Shown here: positions 8,357 to 59,576 of the stretch, one piece after another
Position numbering within the stretch: the stretch's first letter is position 1
Layout: each line of letters opens with the position of its first letter
Origin: Bacillota bacterium
GTDB lineage: Bacteria > Bacillota > Sulfobacillia > Sulfobacillales > JAIMBI01
Direction of reading: 5' to 3'
DNA: 63,878 bases
NCBI GenBank assembly: GCA_021846565.1
Contig: JAJZWS010000012.1
Location: 1 to 63,878 of the forward strand
Notes under the pieces: model-generated
What the model saw: the letters and a program-made list of their open reading frames with translations, nothing else
Told to the model about the DNA's origin: nothing
The model's database searches: none
Position numbers and translations under genes: made by a program

Positions 8357-9155
8357 GTTGAAGTCGCCGTCCGAACGCGATGGGCTCATCGAGGCGGGGC
8401 GCATCGTCGCGGAGGTGCTGGCCCTCCTGCAGGAGGCCGTGCGTCCAGGCCTCGCCACGCGCGAGCTGGACCGGCTGGCCGAGGCCGAGATTCGCCGGCG
8501 CGGCGCCGAGCCGGTATTCAAGGGATACCAGGCTCATCCGAGTCAGCCGGCCTATCCGGCTAGTGTCTGTGTCTCGGTGAACGACGAGGTGGTGCACGGG
8601 ATTCCCGGCACCCGTCGCCTAAACCCGGGGGATCTGGTGAGTCTGGATCTGGGCGCCCGCATTCAGGGCATGGTGGGGGACGCGGCCGTCTCCGTGTTTT
8701 GTGAGGCGCCGCCCAGTGAGGCGGCGGCGCGGCTGTTGGACGTCACCGCCCACGCGCTCGCAGCCGGCATTGCGGCGGCGGTGGCGGGCGGGCACATCGG
8801 GGACATTGGGGCTGCGGTGTCCGGCGTGGTGGAGCCTGCGGGATTTTCCGTCGTCCGGGACTTCGTCGGGCACGGGGTCGGACGCGCCATGCACGAAGAT
8901 CCGCAGGTGCCGAACTACGGGGTGGCTGGCCGCGGCCCACTGATCAAGCCGGGGATGGCGCTGGCCATTGAACCGATGGTCAACATCGGGGGCTGGCATG
9001 TTGCGGTGCGGGATGACGGCTGGACGGTGGTGACGGCCGACCAGAGCCTTTCGTGCCACTTTGAGCACAGCGTGTTTATCGATCCCGACGGAACCCGAGT
9101 GCTGACACGAGTAGCCGAACGTGGGTCAAACGCGGTACAATCAGCGAATGGGTAG
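8349..9155 (+). CDS. map: Methionine aminopeptidase, type I
   Basis: This dinuclear-metal enzyme (268 aa) removes N-terminal methionine from nascent proteins. Metal-site motifs are visible: [17 protein letters not shown] (two Asp), the His block [26 protein letters not shown] (Glu) and CHFEHSVFI (Glu). The GTG start at 8349 overlaps the end of adk and gives the standard N-terminus. The protein has a slightly long C-terminal tail. Confidence 0.95.
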
Positions 9156-9250
9156 CGCCGGCCGTCGCGCCACGGACGGCTGGTTCAATCACGCTGATCG
9201 AGGGCATATTTGGTAGAGCGGCGATTGTCGACGCGAGGGGGGGGACCAGG

Positions 9251-9469
9251 TTGGGAAAGGACGATTCCATTGAAGTGGAGGGCACCGTCATTGAGCCGTT
9301 GCCCAACGCGATGTTTCGCGTGGAGTTGGCCAATGGGCACAAGGTGTTGGCCCATGTCTCCGGCAAGATTCGGATGCACTTCATCCGCATTTTGGCGGGC
9401 GACAAGGTGACAGTCCAGCTGTCGCCGTACGACTTGACGCGGGGCCGCATCACCTATCGGTTTAAGTAG
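9251..9469 (+). CDS. infA: Translation initiation factor IF-1
   Basis: IF-1 (72 aa, the exact family length) is an OB-fold protein that blocks the 30S A site during initiation. Core blocks are [20 protein letters not shown] and the C-terminal [19 protein letters not shown]. The start is a rare TTG behind GAGGGGGGGACCAGG. A leading methionine-glycine-lysine gives the normal N-terminus. No KOW-domain gene separates map and infA here, unlike in some Firmicutes. Confidence 0.96.
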
Positions 9470-31539: not shown

Positions 31540-31953
31540 TCAGGCGTCGGGAGTCTCCTGGCCCGGAGAACACGCGATGTGCGGCGCTGTCTGGAGGATC
31601 AGGGCGTCGGCAGTGATGAGGCGGATCTCTTCGGTTTCCGCCAAGGCCACGTACTCTGCATCGTACGCCGTGAGGCCAAGGAATAACCAGGGCACGATGG
31701 CCGTCAGCGGAGGCGCCTGCCACGTGAAGCCCATGCGATGGAGCTTGAGCGCCAAATCGGCCAGCGCCGCCGCAGGCCAGTGCCACCGACGGCCCGCCAC
31801 ATTCAGCATTTCGAGTTGGAGCAAAGGCGGTGCAATCACGACGAGACGACCGGCTTCAAAGGCGCGCCGCCAAGTGATGGCGTCGGCGGCGTCGGGTTGG
31901 TTGGGCTGAAACCAGTCCAAGACGACGGATGCGTCCAACACAGCTTCGATCAC
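31540..31953 (-). CDS. vapC: VapC family PIN-domain toxin
   Basis: This 137-residue PIN ribonuclease is typical of toxins that cleave tRNA or rRNA. Acidic residues of the site are visible in VLDASVVLDWF, LLQLEMLNVAG, LTAYDAEYVALAE and ITADALIL. It overlaps the upstream antitoxin by four bases (GTGA-type), which couples their translation. No frameshift is seen, so it should be active. Confidence 0.88.
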   Translation of the reverse strand: MIEAVLDASVVLDWFQPNQPDAADAITWRRAFEAGRLVVIAPPLLQLEMLNVAGRRWHWPAAALADLALKLHRMGFTWQAPPLTAIVPWLFLGLTAYDAEYVALAETEEIRLITADALILQTAPHIACSPGQETPDA

Positions 31954-34030: not shown

Positions 34031-35491
34031 CTAGTCGGGCGAGAGTGCGTTCCAAATCAGACCCGACACGGTATTGGCGGTATCAATTCCGTACTGCTCG
34101 CCCGGATCCTGATTCGAGAGGATCGCAATTACGTAGTTGCGACCCTGGCCGTCGACCCACCCGATGCTGTTGATGACCCACCCCGACGGACGCGGCAACC
34201 ACCCATTCTTTAACGCCACCGTGACCCCGTTGGGTACACCTCCAGTCACGCCCCACGCTTCCCAGCTCGTCACATTTTCCATAAGCGACAGCTCGTAGTT
34301 TCGCGAGGCGGCCGAAAGCTCCGGAGTACCATACGCCAGTGCCGACACCAGCTTCACCTGATCCGCGGCCGTAGTTTTGGTGAGCCCCCAGTACACGCTG
34401 GGGGTGGTGCTGTTCATCCCCAGCGCATGCACAAAAGACGCCACGGCCGGGGCGCCCCCCTCGGCGTTCCAGAGGGCCGTGGCGTCATTGTTGTTGCTGT
34501 CCTCGATCATAGGGACGGCGAGATTCTGTTGGGCGGTGGTAAGGGTGGTCTGCTTCGCCTGGGTCTGCTGGAGCAGCGTGCCCAGGATGGATGCCTTGAT
34601 GATGCTCGCGGTGTCAAACTGGGCGCCTCCGTTTATGGTGAAGCTTTGCTGGGTGACCGCATCGTACACCGACACGGCCACATCGCCCTGCCGACCGTCC
34701 AGGTAGTGCTGGATGGCGGCAGGCAGCGCCCCCATGCCCTGCGGGTCCAACAGCGCCTGGGCCGCCGTCACGGCGCTCTGCAGTTGGGTTTGGGCGTCCG
34801 TGAGCTGGCTTTCCAGGCCGGAGAGTTGGCTCAACTGGACCGCCGGCGGCTGTCCGCGGAAGGTTTTGACGGCATCCAGCGCGGTGTCCGCCGCGCTGGT
34901 GGACACCCCCAGTTCTTGCGCCTGGGCTGTGACGCCGCTTAAGGTCGCCACGCGGCTCGCCACGTCGGCTGGCACGCCGTCCTGCTCCGGACCGCCCGCG
35001 GCGGCCAGCGCCTCCACCTGGCTTTGGAACTGCGCCGCCTCTGCACTCCACCGGCTGGTCAGTTTGGCCAGCGCCGTGGGTGTGGTCGCCTGGTGCAACT
35101 CCTGTTGCCGGGACGTGCTCCGGCTGGCGCCAAATTGTCCCTCCACCTGGTTCAGATGCGCCAGCGCGGCGGTGGTCTCGGTCCGGGCGGCACTGGTGTA
35201 GTGGGCCATGACGGTGGTGGTTTCCGTGTCCAGATCCTTTATGGGTGCCGCCAAGTAATTGGGGATCCACCGACCGGGCACGGGGCCCCAGTGCTGAGCG
35301 GCCAGCGCTGCCAGGTGAGCCGTGACGGGCAGAAGGTCCTTGGCCGGCAGCCCTGCTTGGACGTCCCGATGCCACGTGGCCTCGAGGCGGGCGCGCTGAG
35401 CGTCGAAACTGGACGAGCTTTGGTGAGCGACTTCCGCGCCCACGGACCCCAAGAGCAGGACCGATGCCACTGCGCCGTAGCCCCAATGCAT
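34031..35491 (-). CDS. Beta-lactamase-fold serine hydrolase with coiled-coil N-terminus
   Basis: This 486-residue protein has a signal/anchor start (MHWGYGAVASVLLLGSVGAE). About 250 Gln/Ala-rich helical residues follow, probably a coiled coil. The C-terminal domain is of the class A beta-lactamase/DD-peptidase type. Motif 1 is TASIIK (Ser about 296, Lys about 299), motif 2 EDSNNNDA and motif 3 KNG in place of KTG. The ATG is behind GGGGGAAGCGGCT. It could be a peptidoglycan hydrolase or a beta-lactamase. The long helical arm suggests a wall or septal scaffold role. Confidence 0.85.
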   Translation of the reverse strand: MHWGYGAVASVLLLGSVGAEVAHQSSSSFDAQRARLEATWHRDVQAGLPAKDLLPVTAHLAALAAQHWGPVPGRWIPNYLAAPIKDLDTETTTVMAHYTSAARTETTAALAHLNQVEGQFGASRSTSRQQELHQATTPTALAKLTSRWSAEAAQFQSQVEALAAAGGPEQDGVPADVASRVATLSGVTAQAQELGVSTSAADTALDAVKTFRGQPPAVQLSQLSGLESQLTDAQTQLQSAVTAAQALLDPQGMGALPAAIQHYLDGRQGDVAVSVYDAVTQQSFTINGGAQFDTASIIKASILGTLLQQTQAKQTTLTTAQQNLAVPMIEDSNNNDATALWNAEGGAPAVASFVHALGMNSTTPSVYWGLTKTTAADQVKLVSALAYGTPELSAASRNYELSLMENVTSWEAWGVTGGVPNGVTVALKNGWLPRPSGWVINSIGWVDGQGRNYVIAILSNQDPGEQYGIDTANTVSGLIWNALSPD

Positions 35492-35517
35492 AGCCGCTTC
35501 CCCCGGTAGGATCAAGA

Positions 35518-35625: not shown

Positions 35626-36384
35626 CTACACCATGGTGAGCCCCCCCGACGCCGATAAGACCTGTCCCGTGATGTACGCGGCCTCGGGCCCGGCCAGGAA
35701 GCACACCACACCGGCAATGTCGTCGGGCTCTGCCACGCGGCGCAGCGGGATGCGGCGAATCATGCGGTCGATGCGGGCCGCGGCGTCGGGGCCGGCCATG
35801 TTGTCCGCCAGCACGCGCGTGTTGGTGGGGCCCGGCGCGACGGCGTTCACGCGGATGGCGTGCCGGGCCATCTCCTGCGCCAGCGACTTCGTGAGGGCGA
35901 TGACGCCCCCCTTGGCCGCCGCGTATACGGCCTCGCCGGCCATGCCCACCCGGCCGGCGTCCGACACCACATTGACGATGGCGCCGCCGGTTCCCTGCGC
36001 CACCATGGCGCGGAGCACCACCTGCGTACTCACCACGACCGCGCGGAGATTGACCGCCAGCACGCGGTCCCAGTAGTCCGGTGCTTCATCCAGAAACGGA
36101 GTGGTGCGGGTCCACCCCGCGTTGTTGATCAGGACGTCCACCCCCCCCAGGTGGCGGAGCGCGTCCTCCATCAGGCCCCGGTTCGTCGCGGCATCGGCCA
36201 AGTCACCTGAGAGCGGTACGGCGGCCGCGCCCAAGAGAGCGGCGGCCGCCGCGGCACTTTCGGGGTTCAGCGCCAGCACAGCCACCCGTGCTCCGGTGGC
36301 CATGAGCCGCCGGGCCACGGCAAGACCGATCCCGTGCCCCGCGCCGGTGACGATGGCCCGCAGGGGATTGGGCGGTCTGCTCAC
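35626..36384 (-). CDS. Short-chain dehydrogenase/reductase (SDR 1)
   Basis: This 252-residue SDR is the last gene of the leftward catabolic operon. The cofactor loop TGAGHGIG, the NNAG motif and the YAAAK catalytic pair (with the preceding Ser in VVSDAG) are intact. The C-terminal ITGQVLSASGGLTMV is typical of FabG-like reductases. The GTG start overlaps the stop of the preceding CoA-transferase-like gene. It likely oxidises or reduces a hydroxy/keto-acyl-CoA. Confidence 0.88.
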   Translation of the reverse strand: MSRPPNPLRAIVTGAGHGIGLAVARRLMATGARVAVLALNPESAAAAAALLGAAAVPLSGDLADAATNRGLMEDALRHLGGVDVLINNAGWTRTTPFLDEAPDYWDRVLAVNLRAVVVSTQVVLRAMVAQGTGGAIVNVVSDAGRVGMAGEAVYAAAKGGVIALTKSLAQEMARHAIRVNAVAPGPTNTRVLADNMAGPDAAARIDRMIRRIPLRRVAEPDDIAGVVCFLAGPEAAYITGQVLSASGGLTMV

Positions 36385-37328
36385 CGGGACCGGCGGTGCG
36401 GCCAGACGGCGGCATGCAGCGCCTGCCGTTCCCGCTCGTAGATGTTCACCAACCCCTCCGCCGCAGCACGCCCGGACAGAAACTCCAGCTTGCGCACGTC
36501 CAAGGGGTCGGCCGCCCGAATCAGGGCCAGCTCGGCGGCCGTCGGCTCGGTGGTGGTGGGCACCGGATCGGGCAACGCCACGGGAAACGGCGTGGCCTCG
36601 GCCACCGTGGCGGCGGTGACGCCGGGATGGAGACTCACCACCGCGAGCGTGTGCTCCGGACCGTTCCAGTCAAACACCCCTAGGTTGGTCACCAGCAGGG
36701 TGGGGGATCCCGGTTGCCCCAACTCCCGCATCCGGTCTGGCCCGTACCCAGCGCCGCTTCGGAAGTCCACCTGCGCCACCACGGACCGGGGGGTGTGGCT
36801 GGTGACGTAGTACAAAATTTGCGACAGGTGGCTGGTGTCTTCGGGAATCCCCCGCGACCCCACTAATGCCACTTTGGGGTGGTCCCAGGGGCCAATCGCG
36901 GTGATGTTCACGTGGCCGTGCCGGTCCACCTGAGCGGGGTTGATCCAGATCCGAAACCGGTCCAAAAAGATGGCGTCGAAAATGTCCTCCATCGTGAGGG
37001 GAATGCCCTGTTGCGCGTCCGTGAGAAATTGGCCCAGCGTGAGCGTGGGAATGGGCGCCACCTCCATCCCGGATTCGGGCGTGGACAGCACCGCCAAATC
37101 CGGCGCGTGGGTGCGCTTGGCCAGGTGAGCGGCCAGCGCCCCCAGCGCGGTGACGGAACTCACCAGCACTTCGCCGTGCAGTTGGCGGGCCATGACCGTG
37201 ATCATGAGCTCGTCCATGGTATAGCTGGTGTCCTTGGTGGGGGTGGGGCTTAGCTGCGTCGACGCCCCGAGCGGGCCGCCAGCCGCGGCAGTCGTCCCCG
37301 GACGCTCTTGGGAACTCCGGTCTGACAT
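36381..37328 (-). CDS. CoA-transferase-family beta subunit, IpdB-like
   Basis: This 315-residue CoA transferase family I beta subunit is most like IpdB of the steroid CD-ring pathway. Conserved blocks are INPAQVDRHGHVNITAIGPW, VGSRGIPEDTSHLSQI, LLVTNLGVFDW and VVSLHPGVTAATVAEATPFP. IpdAB acts as a ring-opening hydrolase on a bicyclic acyl-CoA in actinobacteria. Here the substrate is unproven. The ATG is behind GAGGAGGAGTCACGGG. It sits next to its alpha partner and shows a Pro/Thr-rich N-terminal extension of about 35 residues. Confidence 0.85.
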   Translation of the reverse strand: MSDRSSQERPGTTAAAGGPLGASTQLSPTPTKDTSYTMDELMITVMARQLHGEVLVSSVTALGALAAHLAKRTHAPDLAVLSTPESGMEVAPIPTLTLGQFLTDAQQGIPLTMEDIFDAIFLDRFRIWINPAQVDRHGHVNITAIGPWDHPKVALVGSRGIPEDTSHLSQILYYVTSHTPRSVVAQVDFRSGAGYGPDRMRELGQPGSPTLLVTNLGVFDWNGPEHTLAVVSLHPGVTAATVAEATPFPVALPDPVPTTTEPTAAELALIRAADPLDVRKLEFLSGRAAAEGLVNIYERERQALHAAVWPHRRSR

Positions 37329-37397
37329 CCCGTGACTCCTCCTCTTAACTGGTCGCGCCCTCCGCGAGTGGTCGCCGTGCGAGCGGGCGCGGCCCGT

Positions 37398-38261
37398 TCA
37401 AACTTCCAGCCGTCCGATGAGCGCTTCCGCGCCGCCTACTGCGGCAATGTAGTCGGCATGTCGGTCACCGATGAACCGGTCCACGTACGCCGCCCAGCTG
37501 GCGGGGTCGCGTGCGGCCGTCAGGTAGTCCTGCACGTGCCGCAGGTCGGCGCGATAGTACGGCGCACAGCCCGTGAAGTGGGCTCCCCACTGCGCCTCGA
37601 CGACACCGTCGACGTGAATGCGGTGAATCTGCACGTCGCGTCCGTAGCGCTGCAGCTCCTCGGCCGACACGACCCGCTCGGCGGACAGGATCGTCCGCTT
37701 GGCGGCTTTGGCGCACAGCACGTCGACGTGCCCGTCACCAAGGATCACGCCGTTGCCCTGGGGATCCGCCAGGTTCACGTGAATCAGGGCAAAGTCCGGA
37801 GCCAGGGCGGGCACCGCCACCAGCGTCTCGCCGCCAAAGGGATCCGGAAAGCGGCGAAAGGCGTCGTTCACTGCCAGCACGTCGGTCCCCAGGCCCACGT
37901 GCGTGGGCAAAAACGGCACGCGTTTGACGGTGGCGTCCAAGCCCGCCATCACGGTGAACTCGGTCCACTCCTGGAAAGCGACGCTGCCGGATTCGCGCGC
38001 GCGTCGAAAGTGCGGCGCCAGTCCCATGATTTCAAAGCCCACGAAGGCATAAACCACCTGGCGGACCTTTTCGGTGCCCAGCAACAGATCCACCTCGGGA
38101 CCGCCCACGTCCACGATGAGCCGAAAGTCCCCGCGGCCCCGCGCTGCCAGCGCCCGCACCAGGCTCATGGGCTTGCGGGACAGGGATGAGCCGCCCACCG
38201 CGATGGTGGCGCCCGCCGGAATGGCGTCCACCACCTCATCGATGCGCATCAATTTGTTCAT
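37398..38261 (-). CDS. CoA-transferase-family alpha subunit, IpdA-like
   Basis: This 287-residue alpha partner has the glycine-rich start AIPAGATIAVGGSSLSRKPM, then DVGGPEVDLLLGTEKVRQVV, YAFVGFE, RVPFLPTHVGLGTDVLAVND and LIHVNLADPQGNGVI. These follow the order of IpdA rather than that of acetate or 3-oxoacid CoA transferases. The ATG lies behind AGGAGGTTCAC. With the beta gene, enoyl-CoA hydratase and three SDRs it forms one leftward operon. Confidence 0.86.
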   Translation of the reverse strand: MNKLMRIDEVVDAIPAGATIAVGGSSLSRKPMSLVRALAARGRGDFRLIVDVGGPEVDLLLGTEKVRQVVYAFVGFEIMGLAPHFRRARESGSVAFQEWTEFTVMAGLDATVKRVPFLPTHVGLGTDVLAVNDAFRRFPDPFGGETLVAVPALAPDFALIHVNLADPQGNGVILGDGHVDVLCAKAAKRTILSAERVVSAEELQRYGRDVQIHRIHVDGVVEAQWGAHFTGCAPYYRADLRHVQDYLTAARDPASWAAYVDRFIGDRHADYIAAVGGAEALIGRLEV

Positions 38262-38333
38262 GTGAACCTCCTCGCTGGCCTTTTCGGTCGCTCGGGCCGC
38301 TGCTCCTGGGCCGCCCGCGGGTGCGGAGGCGCC

Positions 38334-39122
38334 CTATCGGATGTCCTCAAACGGGCCGGAGGCCAAAGACAGCCCCCCGTCCACGCGAATGACCTGGCCG
38401 GTGACAAAGCGGGCCAGATCACTCGCCAGCCAGACGGCCGCGCCGGCGACATCCTCCGGCTCGCCCATGCGGCCCAAGGGCGTGTCTCGCCGCACGGCCT
38501 GGTCCAACCGGTCGTACGTGTCCCGGAGATAATAGCGAGCCGAGTCGGTCGCGATGACTCCGGGTGAGATGCAGTTGGCGGTGATGCCGTCCGCTCCCAG
38601 CTCGTACGCCAAGTAGCGGGTCCACGTTTCCACCGCGCCTTTGGCCGACCCCAGTGCGGCGTAGTTGGCCAGCGTGAACTGGGTGCCGTGGCCCGACACG
38701 GTGATGATGCGGCCCGGACGGCCCGCCATGAGCGGGGCCGCCTCTTGGACCGCCAGCATCAGGCTCCGGACGATGAGATTAAATGTCCGCTCAAAGTGGT
38801 GGGGCCGCATCGCCACGGTGGGCTTGAACGCGGTGGCGGCCGCGTTGGCCACGTAGATGTCGAGGCCGCCCACAGCGTCGCGCACCGTGCGGAACAGCGC
38901 GGCAATCTCCCCGGGCTCCTCCAGATTGGCCCCCACCACCCAAGCCCGCCGGCCGCGGGTCCGAACGCCCAGGGCCGTCTCCTCCGCCAGGTCCTGCGCC
39001 TGGTGGTAGTGCACCACCACGTCCGCCCCCTGGTCCGCCATCGCCCAGGCGGTGGCGCGCCCGATGCCGCGCGAGCTGCCGGTGATGAGCGCCACCCGTC
39101 CAGCCAGCAGGGGGCCGCTCAT
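38334..39122 (-). CDS. Short-chain dehydrogenase/reductase (SDR 2)
   Basis: This 262-residue SDR has the cofactor loop TGSSRGIG, the segment VANAAATAF in place of the usual NNAG and the late motif ISPGVIATDS. The Tyr-Lys pair is present as YAALGSAKGAV, with a longer spacing than YxxxK, which is atypical and resembles enoyl-reductase-like members. The ATG overlaps the preceding SDR stop by four bases. It is probably an acyl-CoA reductase of the same pathway. Confidence 0.85.
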   Translation of the reverse strand: MSGPLLAGRVALITGSSRGIGRATAWAMADQGADVVVHYHQAQDLAEETALGVRTRGRRAWVVGANLEEPGEIAALFRTVRDAVGGLDIYVANAAATAFKPTVAMRPHHFERTFNLIVRSLMLAVQEAAPLMAGRPGRIITVSGHGTQFTLANYAALGSAKGAVETWTRYLAYELGADGITANCISPGVIATDSARYYLRDTYDRLDQAVRRDTPLGRMGEPEDVAGAAVWLASDLARFVTGQVIRVDGGLSLASGPFEDIR

Positions 39123-39901
39123 GAGGAGAGCCCCTTGCCCAGCCACTCGCCGCCGTCAATCACCAGCACCTCGCCGGTGATGAAGTCGGCATACGGCGAC
39201 AGGAGATACCCAGCCGCGTTGGCCACTTCTTCGACCGTGCCAAAGCGGCCGCGGGGAATTTTGGCCAGCAGCCGCGCTGCCGACGCGTCGTCGGGCCAGA
39301 GACCGGCCCGGGCGCCCTCGGTGTCGGTCGGGCCGGGGCAGACCGCATTGACGCGAATGCCTTTTTCGGCCCACTCCACGGCCAGCGTGCGCGTGAGCGT
39401 GACCACGCCCGCCTTGGCCACGGCCGAATGCAGGTTTTTGGGCCCCCCCATCCAGGCGTAGCTGGCGACGATGCTGACAATGCTGCCGCCGTGGCCGGCG
39501 GCCATCATCGCTAGGCCGGCCGCGCGGGTACAATAAAATGTCCCGTGCAGCACGCTGGCGACGACGGCGTTGAAGCCATTGACCGACAACTTCTCCGCGT
39601 CCACGGTGAAGTTGCCCGCAGCCGCGTTGACCAGCAGGTGCAGTCCGCCAAACTTGGCTTGGGCCTGCTGCATGAGCTGGTCCACCTGGTCGGGCTGGCG
39701 CACGTCGGTAGGTACCCCAATGGCGGAAATTCCTTCCGCCTGAAGCCGCTCGGCCGCCGGGTGCACATGTTCGGGATTTCGGCCGGCCAACACCACCCGC
39801 GCGCCGTGGCGCCCCAGCATCTCGGCGATGCCGAACCCAATCCCGGTCCCTCCGCCAGTGACGACGGCCACTTGGCCGGCAAACGTTTCTTCTGGCAACA
39901 C
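39119..39901 (-). CDS. SDR related to 2,4-dienoyl-CoA reductase (SDR 3)
   Basis: This is a 260-residue protein starting at a GTG behind GAGGAGGGCTTGGC. The cofactor loop is TGGGTGIG. NAAAGNF and HSAVAKAGVVTLTRTLAVEW replace NNAG and YxxxK, the pattern of FadH/YkuF-type 2,4-dienoyl-CoA reductases. The C-terminus is ITGEVLVIDGGEWLG. Family enzymes reduce dienoyl-CoA intermediates with NADPH. It sits between the enoyl-CoA hydratase and SDR 2. Confidence 0.87.
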   Translation of the reverse strand: MLPEETFAGQVAVVTGGGTGIGFGIAEMLGRHGARVVLAGRNPEHVHPAAERLQAEGISAIGVPTDVRQPDQVDQLMQQAQAKFGGLHLLVNAAAGNFTVDAEKLSVNGFNAVVASVLHGTFYCTRAAGLAMMAAGHGGSIVSIVASYAWMGGPKNLHSAVAKAGVVTLTRTLAVEWAEKGIRVNAVCPGPTDTEGARAGLWPDDASAARLLAKIPRGRFGTVEEVANAAGYLLSPYADFITGEVLVIDGGEWLGKGLSS

Positions 39902-39982
39902 GCCAAGCCCTCCTCGCGAAACCATCAATTAGAACCAGGTCACAATTTTTGTCGAACCGCAGACCACGGTCGGGCATCGGGG

Positions 39983-40855
39983 CTACTGGCCGCGAAATGT
40001 GGGAGCGCGCTTGGACAAAAAAGCGTTCAGCGCCTCGCGGTGGTCCTGGGTGGCCCCCAAGCGATCCTGCCACTCCGCCTCCAACGCCACCACCTCCTCG
40101 AACGAGGCATCAGCCGCGGCCTGAAGAATGGCCTTGATGCCGGCCTGAGCCATCGGGGCCCCGATGGCCAAGCGGGCGGCGTAGGCCGACGCTGCGGCCG
40201 CCAGGGCCGCAGCGTCCTCGCTGACGCGGGCCACGAGACCCAAGGCCAGCGCCTCCGCCGCGTCCAGCGGCTGACCGGTTAGGCTGAGCTCCATGGCTTT
40301 GGAGAAGCCCAGGAGACGCACCAGGTGATGGGACGCCCCCGAGTCCGGAACCAGGCCCACGCCCACAAACGCCGCGATGAAGCGGGTGCGGGCCTCCGCC
40401 AGACGAATGTCCGCCGCCAGCGCCAGCGACAGTCCGCCGCCCGCGGCCGCGCCGTTGACGGCCGCCACCACCGGCTTGGGCAGCTTGCGCACCGCCTCGA
40501 CCAGCGGGGCCCATTCGTCGTAAATCAGGCGCGCCAGAGCCGGCGGCGCCGCCTCATAGTCGCTGACCAGTTCCGCCACGTCCTGCCCGACCGAGAATGC
40601 CCGCCCGGCCCCCGTGAGCAACACGACCCGGACGGCGTCGTCATCGCGCGCCCGGTCCAGTGCCTCACTGAGCGCGTGGCGGGCGGGGCGGTTTAAGGCA
40701 TTTAAGGCCGCGGGTCGGTTCAGCGTGATCGTAGCCACGTGGTCTGCGACGGCGTAGCGTACCAATTCCTCTGATTCTGGGACATCCTGCGCGTCGATGA
40801 CGATCCCTCCCCGAGGCCAGCAACGATTTGGCGGGTCCACGCATACAATTCTCAA
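39983..40855 (-). CDS. Enoyl-CoA hydratase/isomerase (crotonase family)
   Basis: This crotonase-fold protein of up to 290 residues heads the operon. The core begins VRYAVADHVATITLNRPAAL and includes the oxyanion-hole segments GRAFSVGQDVAEL and VNGAAAGGGLSLALAADIRL. The place of the first catalytic Glu reads IAAFVGVGLVPDSGASHHL. The start is unclear: TTG 40855 and GTG 40840 lack ribosome binding sites, while GGGGAGGG lies next to a non-canonical ATC near 40804. It may hydrate or hydrolyse a cyclic acyl-CoA. Confidence 0.88.
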   Translation of the reverse strand: MRIVCVDPPNRCWPRGGIVIDAQDVPESEELVRYAVADHVATITLNRPAALNALNRPARHALSEALDRARDDDAVRVVLLTGAGRAFSVGQDVAELVSDYEAAPPALARLIYDEWAPLVEAVRKLPKPVVAAVNGAAAGGGLSLALAADIRLAEARTRFIAAFVGVGLVPDSGASHHLVRLLGFSKAMELSLTGQPLDAAEALALGLVARVSEDAAALAAAASAYAARLAIGAPMAQAGIKAILQAAADASFEEVVALEAEWQDRLGATQDHREALNAFLSKRAPTFRGQ

Positions 40856-40961: not shown

Positions 40962-41825
40962 CTACCAGTCGTGGCCGGGCGGGGTGGGCTCTGGCACCCA
41001 CGTGTGCCACCGGGCGTCGTCCGTGATGTTGGGGACGTTCAGCATGCGCAGCTGATCGGTTGTGAGCGGGAACGCCGGGACGCGCTCGCCCAGGGACACC
41101 AGAGGGCGCATGAGCCCGAGCGGCATGTGCAGCTTGGGCACCGGCGGCCGGCGGCCGGCCACCTCCGCCACCCAGTCGATCATGGCGTCCAGCGTCATGC
41201 GCACCGGGCCCCCAATTTCGTAGACCTGGCCCGCGACGTCCTGGGCGGGAGCAGACAGCAGGGACGCCAGCACGGTGGCGAGGTTGCCGCGAAACACGGG
41301 GTCAAACAGCGCGTGCCCGTCACCGGGCACCGGCACTACCGGGTTTTTCGCCAGGCCCGACAGCGTGGCGAAAAAGTCGGCGTGCCCGCCGAACACCAGC
41401 GAGGGCCGCACGACGACGGCCTGGGGCAGCCGCTCACGCACCAGCTGCTCCGCCTCCCACTTGGTTTCGAAGTAGCGGCTCCCGCCACGCGGGCTCACCC
41501 CGAGGGCGGACATCTGCACGTAGCGGGGGGTGCCGGCCTTCAGCGCCGCCTCCACCAGTTTGGCGGTAGCATCCACGTGCAGTGCCTGGTACGTGATGCC
41601 TTCAGCGGGCGTCTCGCGAATAATCCCCACCAGGTTCAGCACACCGTCGACGCCATCCAACAAGGACCCCACCGGATCGCGCTGCATGTTCAGCGCCACC
41701 CCGTGGGCGCCGGTTGCCGCGCGGCCGTGCCGGCTCACGGCCACCACACTGTGTCCCTGCGCACGGATGGCCCCCTGCACCGCCTCACCGATGTACCCGC
41801 TGGCCCCCAGCACGACAAACCGCAT
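40962..41825 (-). CDS. NAD(P)-binding epimerase/NDUFA9-like protein
   Basis: This 287-residue protein has a Rossmann start MRFVVLGASGYIGEAVQGAI, then YVQMSALGVS, FETKWEAEQLVRE and VVRPSLVFGG. These resemble atypical SDRs of the NmrA/NDUFA9 class. The catalytic Tyr is absent from the usual position (RYFETKWEAE gives Y-F-E-T-K, so the YxxxK spacing is retained one residue off). The ATG is behind GGAGAGGTGCATCCC. It is separate from the operon on its left by about 100 bases. Role unknown. Confidence 0.85.
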   Translation of the reverse strand: MRFVVLGASGYIGEAVQGAIRAQGHSVVAVSRHGRAATGAHGVALNMQRDPVGSLLDGVDGVLNLVGIIRETPAEGITYQALHVDATAKLVEAALKAGTPRYVQMSALGVSPRGGSRYFETKWEAEQLVRERLPQAVVVRPSLVFGGHADFFATLSGLAKNPVVPVPGDGHALFDPVFRGNLATVLASLLSAPAQDVAGQVYEIGGPVRMTLDAMIDWVAEVAGRRPPVPKLHMPLGLMRPLVSLGERVPAFPLTTDQLRMLNVPNITDDARWHTWVPEPTPPGHDW

Positions 41826-42008
41826 GGGATGCACCTCTCCTTCGCCCATCGCTGGCCGCCCCACCACCAACTTCCAGCCACCCTCTCATGCTACCAGTTT
41901 ACTGGCTGGGAACCCCGGAAAAGGCGCCACGTTGTGTAGGCCGGTGGCGTTTTGCCAAGAGACGCCGGCGCCCGTCGGCGCAAGTGGGGCACAGAGGGGT
42001 CGCGTCGG

Positions 42009-43113: not shown

Positions 43114-43509
43114 CTAGCGGCACAGCCGGACACGCACTCCAGGAACGGCCGTCCAGGCGCGGTCCGCCGTCAGCGCGACCGCGGACGCGCGCATGGCCAG
43201 AGCCAGACACGCTCGGTCGCCCAGCGACAGGCCCAGACGGCGCGTATCCACCCATAACCGTGCGGCGAGCACCGCTTGGTCCATGTCGAACGGCACGAGC
43301 GTGATGGCGTCGAGTAAGCCCACGCCCTTCATGCGGTCGACGGCCATTGTGGGGTCGATGCCACGGGCGTGCAGGCGAGTGAGCACCTCAGCCCAGTTGA
43401 CGGCAGACACGGCACATTGGCCGTCTAAATGTTCACGCACCGCGTCGGCCCCTGGTTCATCGAAGAAGAGAGCGAGGAGGGCAGACGCGTCCAGGACCGT
43501 GTCAATCAC
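43114..43509 (-). CDS. vapC: VapC family PIN-domain toxin
   Basis: This 131-residue PIN ribonuclease has the acidic site residues in TVLDASALLALFFDEP, NWAEVLTRL, LSLGDRACLALAM and LTADRAW. It starts at a GTG that overlaps the end of the AbrB-type antitoxin by four bases. It appears intact, so it should be toxic without its partner. Confidence 0.9.
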   Translation of the reverse strand: MIDTVLDASALLALFFDEPGADAVREHLDGQCAVSAVNWAEVLTRLHARGIDPTMAVDRMKGVGLLDAITLVPFDMDQAVLAARLWVDTRRLGLSLGDRACLALAMRASAVALTADRAWTAVPGVRVRLCR

Positions 43510-43769
43510 TCGTCGACCGTGTCCTCGCGCCGTGCCTCGGCGCGCCGCTCCGCCAGCAACTCATCCACCGCGCTGTCCCCCTCGCGGCGGTAGTCGCTGA
43601 ACAACCCCCGGGCCGCCTGGAGCTGGTCGCGGAGCGATGCCACGCGCAGATGGCCTTGGGCGGTCACTTCCAGGCTGACACGGTCTCCGGGCCGAAGGCC
43701 GAGACGCCGACGCAGGTCGGCAGGCACCTGAATGCGGGCACGCTGGTCCATCCGGACAACCACGGCCAT
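43506..43769 (-). CDS. AbrB/MazE-type antitoxin
   Basis: This 87-residue protein has a swapped-hairpin AbrB DNA-binding domain at residues 1-48 (MDQRARIQVPADLRRRLGLR, PGDRVSLEVTAQG) and a charged C-terminal tail that should bind the PIN toxin. The ATG lies behind CAAGGGGGCGAGTGGG. Antitoxins of this type usually repress their own operon. Confidence 0.88.
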   Translation of the reverse strand: MAVVVRMDQRARIQVPADLRRRLGLRPGDRVSLEVTAQGHLRVASLRDQLQAARGLFSDYRREGDSAVDELLAERRAEARREDTVDE

Positions 43770-44545: not shown

Positions 44546-46669
44546 TCACGGGTCATGGGATCGCGTCCCCATCGGGTTGGGGCATGGCCCCCAGGGCCAA
44601 AAGGCCCACCGTCCCAACCACACGGTGGAGGACGGCACCAACAGCGTGCGCACCAGCCACGTGTCCAGGAGGATGGCCGCGGTCATGCCGATGGCCAGCG
44701 TCTTCATGATTTCCAGCGGACTCAGGATCAGGGCCAGAAATACCGCCACCATGATCATGCCCGCGCCGGTGATCATGGCGCCGGTTTCCCGCACGCCGGC
44801 GGCGGCCGCTGCGGCCGTGCCGTGGCGGGCCACCATCTCTTCCATGCGGTGCAGCAGGATCACCTCATAGTCCATCGAGAGCCCAAACAGCAGCACAAAC
44901 ACCAGTGGCGTGATGCTGCTGTCGGGAGACAGGGGCAAAAGGCCCAGGCTGCCGCGCTGCACCGTGGCCACCATCACCCCGGCCGTGGCGAGCGCCACCA
45001 GCCCGTCGAACGCGACCCCCAGGAGGGCCTGCCACAGCGACCCGGTGGCCACCAGCAGCACGATGAACGCCACCGCGGCCACCGCCCCGATGATAAACGG
45101 CAGTCGCTGCGCGGTCAGCCGATTGAATCCGTGCAGCAGCGCCGTAACGCCGCCCACCCCGGTGGTGAGGCCGGGCAGCCAGTGGGGGAGCTGGCGGTCC
45201 AGGCGCTGCACCAACGCCAGCGTGGCGGCCGAGTCGGGTCCCTGGCGCGACGTCACGTACAGCACCGCCAGATGAGGCTGGGAGACGGGCGCGGCAAAGC
45301 TGGCCAGCGCGGTGGTGAGCGTCGACGGCACGCCTGGCGTCCGGCGCGCGGCCAGGGCCAGGGCGCGTGGGGACGCGAGCGCGGTGGGCGACTGCACGCT
45401 CTTCACGGTGGGATCGTGGGCGATCAGGGTCGCAATCTGCTGGACGCGGGTCCAGGCGGCCGGCGTGGTCACCCGTTCCGGAAGCTCCATGACAACCGCC
45501 ACGGGCGCGGCAGACCCGGGCCCCAGCACCCGCTGGGCTTCAAACACCGCTTCGCGGAGCGGGTCGTGGGCGGGCAGCAGGACCGCCAGGTTGGCGGGCG
45601 TGCTCATGCGGATGGCCGGGCCCTGGCTCGCCGGTACGCCCAGCAGGACCGCGGCGGCGAGAAAGGCCCACCCGGGATGGCGGCGCACGAAGCCGGCGAG
45701 GCGCTCCCAGAAGCGCGCCGCGCCCCGGACGGGCACGCGCCCCCAGTGAATGCGGGGTCCCAGGGCACTCAGGACGGCTGGCAGCAGCGTGTGCGTGCAG
45801 ACGAGTACCACCGCCACGGTGATAGCCCCGCCCACGGCAATGCCTCGCCAATAGGCGTTGCCGCCCAAAGCCAGCGTGGCCAACGCCAATGCCACCGCGA
45901 GGCCCGAGAACAGCACCGAGCGCCCGGCCTGTCCCATGGCCTCGTGCAGCGCCGTGACCGCGTCCGCGCCAGCGCGTCCCAGGGCTTGCCGGTAGCGCAC
46001 GCTGATGAAGAGCGCATAGTCCACGCCCACGCCCAGGGCCAAAAAGCTCACAATGTCGGTCAGATAGGCCGAGAGCGTCATGCTGTTCTCCAACAGGTCG
46101 ATGACCGCCAGCGCCACCACCGTGCCTACGGCCGCCACGCCCAGCGGCAGCGTGGCGGATGCCACCGTGCCAAACACCAGCAGCAGCAGGACCAGCAGAA
46201 GGGGCAACGCTACCGGCAAACTGGTCGCCAGCGTGGATTTGGTATCGCGAATCACCCGCTGGCCCACGGATAACTGGTTCACCGCCACAAGCGTGGCGCC
46301 CCGGTGGGTGGCGTACGCCGAAAACGCATGCACCGCCGTCCCGGGCACGTGGGTGGGAAAAACGACGGCATTGCCGTCCGACAGTTGGCGGACGTTGGCG
46401 GTCGGGATATGAAAACGACTGGCCCAGGCCTGCACCCGCGCGTACGGCGCGCGTTCCACCAAGAGCGGCGAGGCGGCCGGGGGACCGTGCAGATGGGCCA
46501 GCTGATTGTCGGCCCACACCGCCCGACTGCCGGGGGCGTCGAGTCCGGTGGTGGTCAGGTGGTGGGTGACGTTTTTGGCCAGCGGAGCCGCCGCAAACAG
46601 GACCAATACCCACAGGCCGATAACCCACCAGCGGTGGCGGCCCATGAACACGCCCAACCGTCCCAGCAT
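44546..46669 (-). CDS. MMPL/RND superfamily transporter
   Basis: This 707-residue inner-membrane protein has the duplicated MMPL layout: one N-terminal helix, an extracytoplasmic domain, five helices, then a second copy. Charged transmembrane motifs typical of proton-driven members are visible: FLALGVGVDYALFI in the first half and LFGLSMDYEVILLHR in the second. The ATG lies behind AGGAGGGAGTGC. Such proteins export lipids or drugs. No regulator is adjacent, and a decayed IS lies upstream. Confidence 0.92.
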   Translation of the reverse strand: MLGRLGVFMGRHRWWVIGLWVLVLFAAAPLAKNVTHHLTTTGLDAPGSRAVWADNQLAHLHGPPAASPLLVERAPYARVQAWASRFHIPTANVRQLSDGNAVVFPTHVPGTAVHAFSAYATHRGATLVAVNQLSVGQRVIRDTKSTLATSLPVALPLLLVLLLLVFGTVASATLPLGVAAVGTVVALAVIDLLENSMTLSAYLTDIVSFLALGVGVDYALFISVRYRQALGRAGADAVTALHEAMGQAGRSVLFSGLAVALALATLALGGNAYWRGIAVGGAITVAVVLVCTHTLLPAVLSALGPRIHWGRVPVRGAARFWERLAGFVRRHPGWAFLAAAVLLGVPASQGPAIRMSTPANLAVLLPAHDPLREAVFEAQRVLGPGSAAPVAVVMELPERVTTPAAWTRVQQIATLIAHDPTVKSVQSPTALASPRALALAARRTPGVPSTLTTALASFAAPVSQPHLAVLYVTSRQGPDSAATLALVQRLDRQLPHWLPGLTTGVGGVTALLHGFNRLTAQRLPFIIGAVAAVAFIVLLVATGSLWQALLGVAFDGLVALATAGVMVATVQRGSLGLLPLSPDSSITPLVFVLLFGLSMDYEVILLHRMEEMVARHGTAAAAAAGVRETGAMITGAGMIMVAVFLALILSPLEIMKTLAIGMTAAILLDTWLVRTLLVPSSTVWLGRWAFWPWGPCPNPMGTRSHDP

Positions 46670-47928: not shown

Positions 47929-48345
47929 CTACGACTCACCGAAGACCGCGAGGCCCAGGTGGCGCGCCGCCCTGGCCATGGCCTGATCCTGGGTAGCCAG
48001 CGCCAGCCCTGACCGCATGGCCATATCAACATAAGCGGCATCATAACTGCTGAGCTGGCAGTCTTGGGCTAGCGCTAAGACGCGCGCGGTGTCGCGCACG
48101 GCCATGGCGGTGCCGAGTCGAATGGGCAGATCCAAGAGCCCGTCCAGAAGCGCGCGAGCCTTAGGGGCCGAGATCCGTCCGCGCTTGGTGGCCGTGAGCA
48201 GGGCATTAGACGCCTCCAGGAGCCACAGCGCTGGCACGATCGCGTAGGTTTCGTCCAGATGATCGAGGACGCGGTCCGTGTAGGCGGTGCCCTCGTCCTC
48301 AAAGCACCAGGCCATGCTGACGGAGTTATCCAGCACGAAGGCCAC
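47929..48345 (-). CDS. vapC: PIN-domain toxin
   Basis: This 138-residue PIN ribonuclease has acidic site residues in FVLDNSVSMAWCFEDE, WLLEASNALL, LSSYDAAYVDMAM and ALATQDQAM. It starts at a GTG one base after the antitoxin stop. It belongs to a different PIN subgroup from the two other intact copies, as judged by its N-terminus. Confidence 0.89.
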   Translation of the reverse strand: MAFVLDNSVSMAWCFEDEGTAYTDRVLDHLDETYAIVPALWLLEASNALLTATKRGRISAPKARALLDGLLDLPIRLGTAMAVRDTARVLALAQDCQLSSYDAAYVDMAMRSGLALATQDQAMARAARHLGLAVFGES

Positions 48346-58011: not shown

Positions 58012-58091
58012 GAGCGCAACCCGTGCAGGGAGAGGGCGTCCGGTCACCCGGCCCCGTCCTAGATCACCAGAAGGATGTGAGGTGCGCAAGG

Positions 58092-59576
58092 ATGCTCACG
58101 ATTGGTGAAGCGCTGCGCTCGGCGAGCCAGCGGCATCGGAACAAGACCGCCCTGGTGTTTGGCGCCGAGACGCTGACGTATGGCGAGCTGGACCGGCGGG
58201 TGAATCAGTTTGCCAACGCGCTCGCGGCCTGGGGGGTGGCGGCGGGGGATCGGGTGGGGCTCTTGTTGCCCAACGGCCTGTGGATGGCCGTGGCCTATTT
58301 CGGGGCAGCGCGGGCTGGAGCCGTCGCGGTGCCGGTGAATCTCCGATGGGCCGCTCCGGAAGTCCAATACGTGCTGGCGGACGCCCAGGTGCGACTGGTG
58401 CTGGCCGACGAAGACTTTCGGGCCCTGCTGCCGCCCGCCCCGCACATCCACGTGGGACGCGCGTGGCAGGATGCCGTGCTGGCGGCCAGCGCTCTGGATC
58501 CCCAGGTGGTGGTGCAGGAGACTGACCCGTGGGTGATCGTGTACACGTCGGGCACCACGGGCCGGCCCAAGGGGGCGGTGCGGGACCACCGGTCCAACCT
58601 CATGATTGCGCTGGTGCTGCTGGCTGAGCTGTCCATCACCACCGAGGACGTGGGGATGGCGCTCTTGCCCATGTTTCACGTCAACTCCATGTGGTTTGTG
58701 ACGCTCTCGCTGATTATCGGGACCACGTGCGTGATTTACCCGCACCGGACGTTCCATCCCGGCCATATTGTCGAGGCGTTCAACACGCACCAGGTGACGT
58801 ATTCGATGTTTGTGCCCAGCATGCTGGCCATGCTGGCCGATGCGGCCGAGCGCGGCGCGCTGGAGCCGTCGCACCTCCGCGTTGCGCTGACGTCCTCGGC
58901 GCCCTTGGACCTGGCGTTGCGCGACCGCCTGTTGCGCGTGTTTCCGCACGCACGGCTTTATGACATCTATGGGGCGACCGAGTACGGCGGCGTGACCCTG
59001 ATGCAGCATGCGCCCGATGAGGCGGTGGGCAGCGTGGGCTGGCCGGTGGTGGGCGCGTCGGTGCGCATCATGGGCGAGGAGGGCCATCCCGTCGCGCCCG
59101 GCGCGGTGGGGGAAGTCTACGTCCAAGCGCCGAGCCTCATGCGGGAATACTGGCAAAATCCCGAGGCGACCCGGGCCGCCCGGGACGATGACGGGTACCT
59201 GACGCTCGGGGACATGGGATACCAGGATGAGGCCGGGCGGCTGTGGCTGGTGGACCGCAAGCAGGACATGATGATCGTGGCCGGCGAAAACGTGTACCCG
59301 CGCGAAGTGGAAGACGTGCTGCTGGAAAACCCGGACGTGTTGATGGCCGCCGCCGTGGGCCTCCCCGACCCCAAGCGGGGGCAGGTGGTGGTGGCGGCGG
59401 TCGTGCCCCACGCCGGCCGCACCCCGGACGTCGAGGCGCTGCGCGACGCCTGCCGGGCCAAGCTGGCCGACTACAAGCGGCCGCGGGACATTCGGGTGAT
59501 GGCCGAACTTCCGACGGGTCCCACAGGCAAGGTGGTGCGCCGTCTGGTGCGGGAGGGGTGGGACGGGGCCCACTGA
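58092..59576 (+). CDS. Acyl-CoA synthetase (AMP-forming)
   Basis: This 494-residue ANL-superfamily ligase activates a carboxylic acid to its CoA thioester. The AMP-binding loop is IVYTSGTTGRPKGAVRDH, the A5 region YDIYGATEYGGV, the hinge LVDRKQDMMIVAGENVYPRE and the catalytic Lys in PTGPTGKVVRRLV. The ATG at 58092 follows GAGGTGCGCAAGG. It is close in organisation to FadD3/medium-chain and aromatic-acid ligases. The specificity cannot be read from the sequence. Confidence 0.93.
   Translation: MLTIGEALRSASQRHRNKTALVFGAETLTYGELDRRVNQFANALAAWGVAAGDRVGLLLPNGLWMAVAYFGAARAGAVAVPVNLRWAAPEVQYVLADAQVRLVLADEDFRALLPPAPHIHVGRAWQDAVLAASALDPQVVVQETDPWVIVYTSGTTGRPKGAVRDHRSNLMIALVLLAELSITTEDVGMALLPMFHVNSMWFVTLSLIIGTTCVIYPHRTFHPGHIVEAFNTHQVTYSMFVPSMLAMLADAAERGALEPSHLRVALTSSAPLDLALRDRLLRVFPHARLYDIYGATEYGGVTLMQHAPDEAVGSVGWPVVGASVRIMGEEGHPVAPGAVGEVYVQAPSLMREYWQNPEATRAARDDDGYLTLGDMGYQDEAGRLWLVDRKQDMMIVAGENVYPREVEDVLLENPDVLMAAAVGLPDPKRGQVVVAAVVPHAGRTPDVEALRDACRAKLADYKRPRDIRVMAELPTGPTGKVVRRLVREGWDGAH

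Follow-up and report, generated by a model that had tools for sequence, protein, structure and literature searches.

A window of 63,878 nucleotides (the whole stretch of DNA analysed, contig JAJZWS010000012.1) carries a cassette of six genes built around an IpdAB-like pair, which an earlier note, made from the letters alone, had read as a steroid-ring degradation cassette in an apparent Firmicute. The source genome (3.4 Mb, 96% complete, with the window as contig 69) was tested by profile and sequence searches, and order-wide searches were carried out in 42 Sulfobacillales genomes. The host belongs to a Bacillota lineage, as the earlier note had supposed, within the Sulfobacillales, and close relatives among public genomes are Bacillota metagenome-assembled genomes, Sulfobacillus among them.

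All six open reading frames (ORFs) were found leftward between 35626 and 40855, at the positions and in the order previously given. The first, Ech (39983-40855), is a protein of the crotonase superfamily of the PaaG-like (isomerase) type. It is followed by SDR1 (39119-39928), a short-chain dehydrogenase/reductase (SDR) of the 2,4-dienoyl-CoA reductase type, SDR2 (38334-39146), of the FabL enoyl reductase type, the IpdA-like alpha subunit (37398-38261), the IpdB-like beta subunit (36381-37328), which has an N-terminal extension of about 33 residues, and SDR3 (35626-36384), a classical Y-x3-K SDR that is BadH-like, all on the reverse strand. SDR1 and SDR2 overlap by 28 bp, and IpdB and SDR3 by 4 bp. 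Considering that third-position GC is high in all six ORFs and that their syntenic homologues are conserved, they are not chance frames. The cassette has conserved counterparts in about two dozen genomes of the Sulfobacillales, with the order Ech-SDR1-(SDR2)-IpdA-IpdB-SDR3 repeated in independent genomes, and the six genes form an operon-like unit that is real and conserved.

The IpdAB-like pair and its active site

By comparison with solved structures, the IpdA-like protein matched IpdA 6co6 (phmmer, 1e-49) ahead of the glutaconate CoA-transferase (GCT) subunit GctA (8e-25), and the IpdB-like protein matched 6con_B (2e-31) ahead of GctB (5e-17). The ranking of IpdAB before GctAB was unchanged for both subunits in profile searches, and neither Pfam nor NCBIfam assigned a family to the IpdB-like protein. 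In an alpha-subunit tree of 57 sequences, the Sulfobacillia IpdA and the steroid IpdAs were gathered in one clade (support 100/99, 33 rows), with GctA, AibA and a second, GCT-like pair of the same genome outside it; inside this superclade the Sulfobacillia IpdA formed a separate clade beside all the steroid IpdAs. The residue E101 of the IpdA-like subunit aligns with Glu105 of Rhodococcus jostii RHA1 IpdA, which is the residue mutated in 6coj (E105A). A Glu is present there in 20/20 sequences of Sulfobacillia, 10/10 of steroid IpdAs and 3/3 of divergent members, but only in 3/24 of the outgroup. The top Foldseek matches of the IpdA model (mean pLDDT 66) were 6con, 6coj, 6co6 and 6co9. The resemblance to IpdA and IpdB that the earlier note had described is thus borne out, and these sequence comparisons confirm the assignment of the pair to the IpdAB superclade, not to GctAB or ScoAB. 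Of the outcomes that the note had named as refuting its reading, neither was observed: the tree did not put the pair among the CoA-transferases, and the IpdAB-specific Glu is not lost.

In GCT-type beta subunits the nucleophile Glu lies exactly six residues past a conserved D/N position, which was the case in 16/16 transferase-type relatives of the alignment. At this position, occupied by Gly57 in RHA1, the IpdB-like subunit has T/S when the alignment is ungapped, followed by P and E-S-G, and the resulting TPESG/SPESG motif is invariant in Sulfobacillia IpdB. The transferase nucleophile was thus likely lost in this subunit. When a two-residue insertion is allowed, the gapped alignment puts the invariant Glu of TPESG on the catalytic transferase position, and the AlphaFold model of IpdB (pLDDT 46) is too poor to place that residue. 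The pair could then transfer CoA to an unusual acid and so load it for the reductases encoded next to it, the TPESG Glu being the nucleophile, an idea which the resemblance of the invariant E-S-G to the ESG of GCT also favours. Taking into account the spacing in the 16 relatives and the IpdAB-specific Glu kept in IpdA, we consider a transferase improbable.

Other pairs of this fold were seen in the course of the searches. The beta subunit of the second pair of the source genome (G000:C63:31206-32611, L002/L077) has the usual Glu, and directly upstream of this pair there is a longer ORF, possibly an aldehyde/P5C dehydrogenase. An IpdAB-like pair of another Bacillota family (L157, G428:C25, ipdA-like gene at 8588-9412) branches with the steroid IpdAs and adjoins a radical SAM protein and a nitroreductase-like gene. 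A 559-residue ORF with the look of a thiamine-diphosphate enzyme is flanked by two GCT/IpdAB-like pairs (L072, G035:C266).

Companion enzymes and the steroid reading

The best NCBIfam match of Ech was PaaG (TIGR02280, 229.9 bits, below the cut-off of 345, which no genome of the order reaches), and its top PDB matches include 3hrx, 6sla and Escherichia coli PaaG 4fzw_C. Its active site, AF..GLVPDSG, resembles AF..GLIPDCG of E. coli PaaG; the PaaG Asp is present in PD(S/T)G, and the hydratase Glu, found as "PE" in PaaF and EchA20, is lost. The idea that Ech is the main PaaG of the genome was dropped, as another PaaG-family match scores higher. SDR1 matched PRK07677 (262.6 bits, cut-off 318) and, in PDB, human DECR 1w6u (2e-51) and also 4fc6; an S-x3-K signature (SAVAK) replaces its Y-x3-K and is kept in 28/28 cassette members of the SDR1 type. 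SDR2 was closest to FabL (PRK08063, 224.9 bits, cut-off 328), with a conserved Y-x6-K signature, YAALGSAK. We had considered SDR2 as the enoyl-ACP reductase of the cell, for it seemed complementary to FabK-like genes, and dropped this when FabI was found in 37/42 genomes, the source genome included. SDR3 matched BadH (TIGR03206, 222.9 bits, cut-off 431.2) slightly under the generic PRK07231 (225), and its motif S(D/E)AGRVGM.GE(A/S).YA is nearly invariant. As all four companion genes lie below the equivalog cut-offs, these names describe types and are not assignments. The core cassette and its conserved neighbours contained no recognisable acyl-CoA dehydrogenase or thiolase.

The earlier note had proposed the degradation of steroid CD-ring (HIP) products as in Mycobacterium, on the model of the M. 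tuberculosis genes Rv3548c-Rv3553. Membership of the IpdAB superclade speaks for it, and an echA/ipdA/ipdB/SDR neighbourhood like the mycobacterial one is indeed there. The likeness is superficial, however, since there is no ipdC in the window and the crotonase is PaaG-like, not of the EchA20 type. The genome-wide search for an ipdC homolog suggested by the note gave no match to the IpdC/FabK family in the source genome, although the same search was positive in 33/42 relatives and in seven controls. EchA20 (NF005925) was above its cut-off of 260 in 0/42 genomes of the order, while true orthologues (L016, L018) reach 320-394 bits. KstD was not found in the source genome, and HsaC was not found in the 42 genomes, in a search whose control was silent too. 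The separate position of the Sulfobacillia IpdA beside all steroid IpdAs also argues against a steroid substrate. In plasmid records of Actinobacteria and Proteobacteria, ipdAB occurs together with ipdC and steroid genes. The gene content contradicts the steroid reading, which we set aside as highly improbable after these searches for IpdC, EchA20, KstD and HsaC.

Fatty-acid context and proposed function

Related IpdAB genes were found within fatty-acid operons in three genomes, with fabF or fabH in all three and plsX in two of them: fabF-SDR2-ipdA-ipdB-SDR3-plsX (L009), ipdA-ipdB-ech-fabH-fabG-SDR2-plsX (L071) and ipdA-ipdB-fabH-SDR3-like-SDR2-like (L070). The PlsX proteins score slightly under their family cut-off. 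In the genera of Sulfobacillus benefaciens and its relatives ipdAB stands alone; in S. benefaciens and a relative (L052, L056) this solitary ipdAB directly adjoins a CsoR-like regulator and a copper-type P-ATPase.

Our preferred explanation, with a probability of about 0.4, is that the cassette encodes a module for alicyclic acyl-CoA which feeds the synthesis of omega-alicyclic fatty acids. The module would act on acyl-CoA thioesters that bear a ring. In it the IpdAB-like enzyme, of alpha and beta subunits, may form or cleave a cyclic 2-oxocycloalkene-carboxyl-CoA through (retro-)aldol chemistry, by homology to known IpdAB, which performs the retro-aldol hydrolysis of a six-ring oxo-cycloalkene-carboxyl-CoA (PMC5380842). 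Together with the PaaG-like isomerase, the SDRs of the dienoyl- and enoyl-reductase types and the BadH-like one would then reduce the ring, to yield cycloalkane-carboxyl-CoA starters for omega-alicyclic fatty acids; in the two species reported as producers these would be cycloheptyl. We infer which substrate is used, which way the IpdAB step runs and that the product serves to start fatty acids. Membership of the IpdAB superclade, the IpdAB-specific Glu, the T/S of the ungapped beta-subunit alignment, the ketoreductase, enoyl-reductase and isomerase signatures of the companions, the fatty-acid operons, the match with cycloheptyl-producing species and the co-occurrence with PaaA support the module.

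S. harzensis and S. acidophilus are the only Sulfobacillus species for which 11-cycloheptyl-undecanoate is reported in PMC8489842. The full cassette is present in S. acidophilus and in a genome (G148) that appears to match S. harzensis, and S. thermotolerans is devoid of ipdAB. Of the genomes of the order with a full cassette, 22/23 have PaaA, the phenylacetyl-CoA epoxidase, versus 8/15 of the others (Fisher p 0.003, uncorrected for kinship). It was also possible to see paaABCD operons (L109, G000:C96, and L110-L122) with two PaaA clades, one of them almost only in cassette-bearing lineages. According to a review on tropone, a shunt of phenylacetate degradation forms a seven-ring hydroxycycloheptatriene-carboxyl-CoA by spontaneous Knoevenagel condensation, a compound from which, in its view, omega-cycloheptyl fatty acids are likely derived. 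No genes assigned to their biosynthesis were found in the openly accessible literature; gene-level literature on omega-cyclohexyl fatty acids from shikimate was not found either, and these are kept here under the wording omega-alicyclic.

Considering that the retro-aldol reaction of IpdAB and the Knoevenagel step of the shunt are formally opposite, the pair might close (or reopen) the seven-membered ring. In its most specific form the proposal is that the IpdAB-like pair is a ring-closing enzyme, working as a reverse retro-aldol (an intramolecular Knoevenagel condensation) and giving a seven-membered cycloalkene-carboxyl-CoA that is afterwards reduced to the cycloheptyl starter. This cyclase is a speculative proposal, unlikely as it stands, and we hold it less probable than the broader module because the link with PaaA has exceptions.

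Several observations weigh against the module, besides the gapped alignment mentioned above. PaaA is missing from two cassette genomes (G033 and G141), and a congener of G033 (G007) has PaaA without the cassette; a strict dependence of the cassette on PaaA is weakened by these three genomes. The match with the phenotype consists of two positive species and two checked negatives and is not phylogenetically independent, and S. benefaciens AMDSBA4 keeps ipdAB without the reductases, no cycloheptyl acid being reported for this species. The cassette of the window is itself not adjoined by fatty-acid genes, and the best PaaG-family match of its genome lies elsewhere (252 bits versus 230 for Ech).

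The set of ketoreductase, isomerase and enoyl reductases and the fabF, fabH and plsX neighbours in some genomes would also agree with another reductive role on acyl-CoA or acyl-ACP in fatty-acid synthesis, for example of unsaturated or branched chains, with no rings involved, and the two cassette genomes devoid of PaaA point the same way. Such a role leaves unexplained the IpdAB-type ring enzyme and the match with cycloheptyl producers, and the presence of FabI in 37/42 genomes indicates that the cassette is not a housekeeping route; we regard it as unlikely.

A catabolic function has more in its favour, although it is still doubtful. In this case an alicyclic or reduced aromatic acid would be opened through hydration or isomerisation by Ech, BadH-like oxidation to a cyclic 2-oxoacyl-CoA and hydrolysis by IpdAB in place of BadI; alternatively, the cycloheptatriene-carboxyl-CoA formed as a side product of phenylacetate degradation would be salvaged. 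SDR3 resembles BadH, ring opening is the known direction of IpdAB, PaaA co-occurs, and the extended operons of S. acidophilus relatives add genes for a NUDIX protein, a TauE-like protein, an MBL-fold hydrolase, another SDR of the dienoyl-reductase type and a FAS1-DH/MaoC pair, of which the NUDIX, MBL-fold and MaoC/FAS1-DH genes are as in CoA-ester catabolism. Against it stand the lack of a recognised thiolase or acyl-CoA dehydrogenase, the fact that two of the three SDRs are reductase types, the fab and plsX neighbours in three genomes and a crotonase without the hydratase Glu. The fallback of the earlier note, another alicyclic acid, may still hold and comes close to the module that we prefer, but the context is one of fatty-acid synthesis and not of degradation.

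Outside the six genes, an AMP-forming acyl-CoA ligase on the forward strand (58023-59576; PRK06187, 424 bits, cut-off 476) is possibly associated. It is 65-69% identical to the cassette-adjacent ligase of L049, L007 and L008 and 54-58% identical to the paaABCD-adjacent ligase of L117 and L118, and it reached 303 bits with the FadD3 model, whose cut-off is 657. A NAD-dependent epimerase/dehydratase-like gene (40962-41870, reverse strand, PF01370) adjoins the cassette in all loci of family f1, on the opposite strand in the f1 genera g2 and g3, and its membership is uncertain. Downstream of the cassette lies a class A beta-lactamase-fold protein (34031-35515), in the same place in the congeneric loci L003-L005, where a large RND/MMPL-like membrane protein (44546-46669 in the window) is also nearby; this one could be a lipid transporter. 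ORFs in the style of PIN-domain toxin-antitoxin systems are dispersed in the window (31540-31953, 43114-43769 and 47929-48345).

Significance and comparison with known systems

IpdAB contributes to the virulence of M. tuberculosis and, to our knowledge, is known only from steroid degradation. What is new here, as far as sequence comparison goes, is an IpdAB sister clade in a conserved cassette that is predicted to be non-steroid. The occurrence of this clade in acidophilic Bacillota without the steroid pathway shows a wider range of the enzyme type and cautions against taking ipdAB as a steroid marker. If the lipid link were true, the biosynthesis of omega-cycloheptyl fatty acids would for the first time become accessible at the level of genes, and this in S. 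acidophilus, with a complete genome for its type strain; if the ring-closing proposal were true, no enzyme for seven-ring closure would have been known before this pair, which would also be the first anabolic IpdAB.

The Sulfobacillales pair shares with the COCHEA-CoA hydrolases IpdAB of R. jostii RHA1 (6co6/6co9/6coj) and M. tuberculosis (6con), its sister clade, the Glu105 residue, the two-gene order, the top structural matches of the IpdA model and, without gaps, a residue other than Glu at the transferase position of the beta subunit. It differs from them in its identity of about 40%, in its beta motif (TPESG versus TDGEA), in its location within fatty-acid operons in some genomes and in the absence of IpdC, EchA20, FadE30-33 and FadA6 as neighbours (no genome-wide search was aimed at FadD3, FadE30-33, FadA6 or IpdF). 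With GctAB (1poi) and the decarboxylase AibAB (5mzw) it has in common the type I CoA-transferase fold and the paired subunits; the IpdA superclade (100/99) does not include these two, which have no Glu105 equivalent and carry Glu (Gct) or Cys (Aib) where the Sulfobacillia IpdB has T/S in the ungapped alignment.

The BadK-BadH-BadI ring-opening route of Rhodopseudomonas palustris involves similar chemistry on cyclic acyl-CoAs and a BadH that SDR3 resembles below the cut-off, whereas the cassette has no BadI-type hydrolase, its crotonase is PaaG-like, and the IpdAB pair and the enoyl reductases are additional. The phenylacetate pathway differs in that the paa genes lie outside the cassette, which two genomes carry without PaaA, and in that ring closure elsewhere is described as spontaneous. 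With this pathway and its cycloheptatriene-CoA shunt, the proposed source of omega-cycloheptyl groups, the cassette shares the PaaG-like Ech, the PaaA found in almost every genome of the order that carries the cassette, and an IpdAB chemistry that is formally the reverse of the ring-closing Knoevenagel step.

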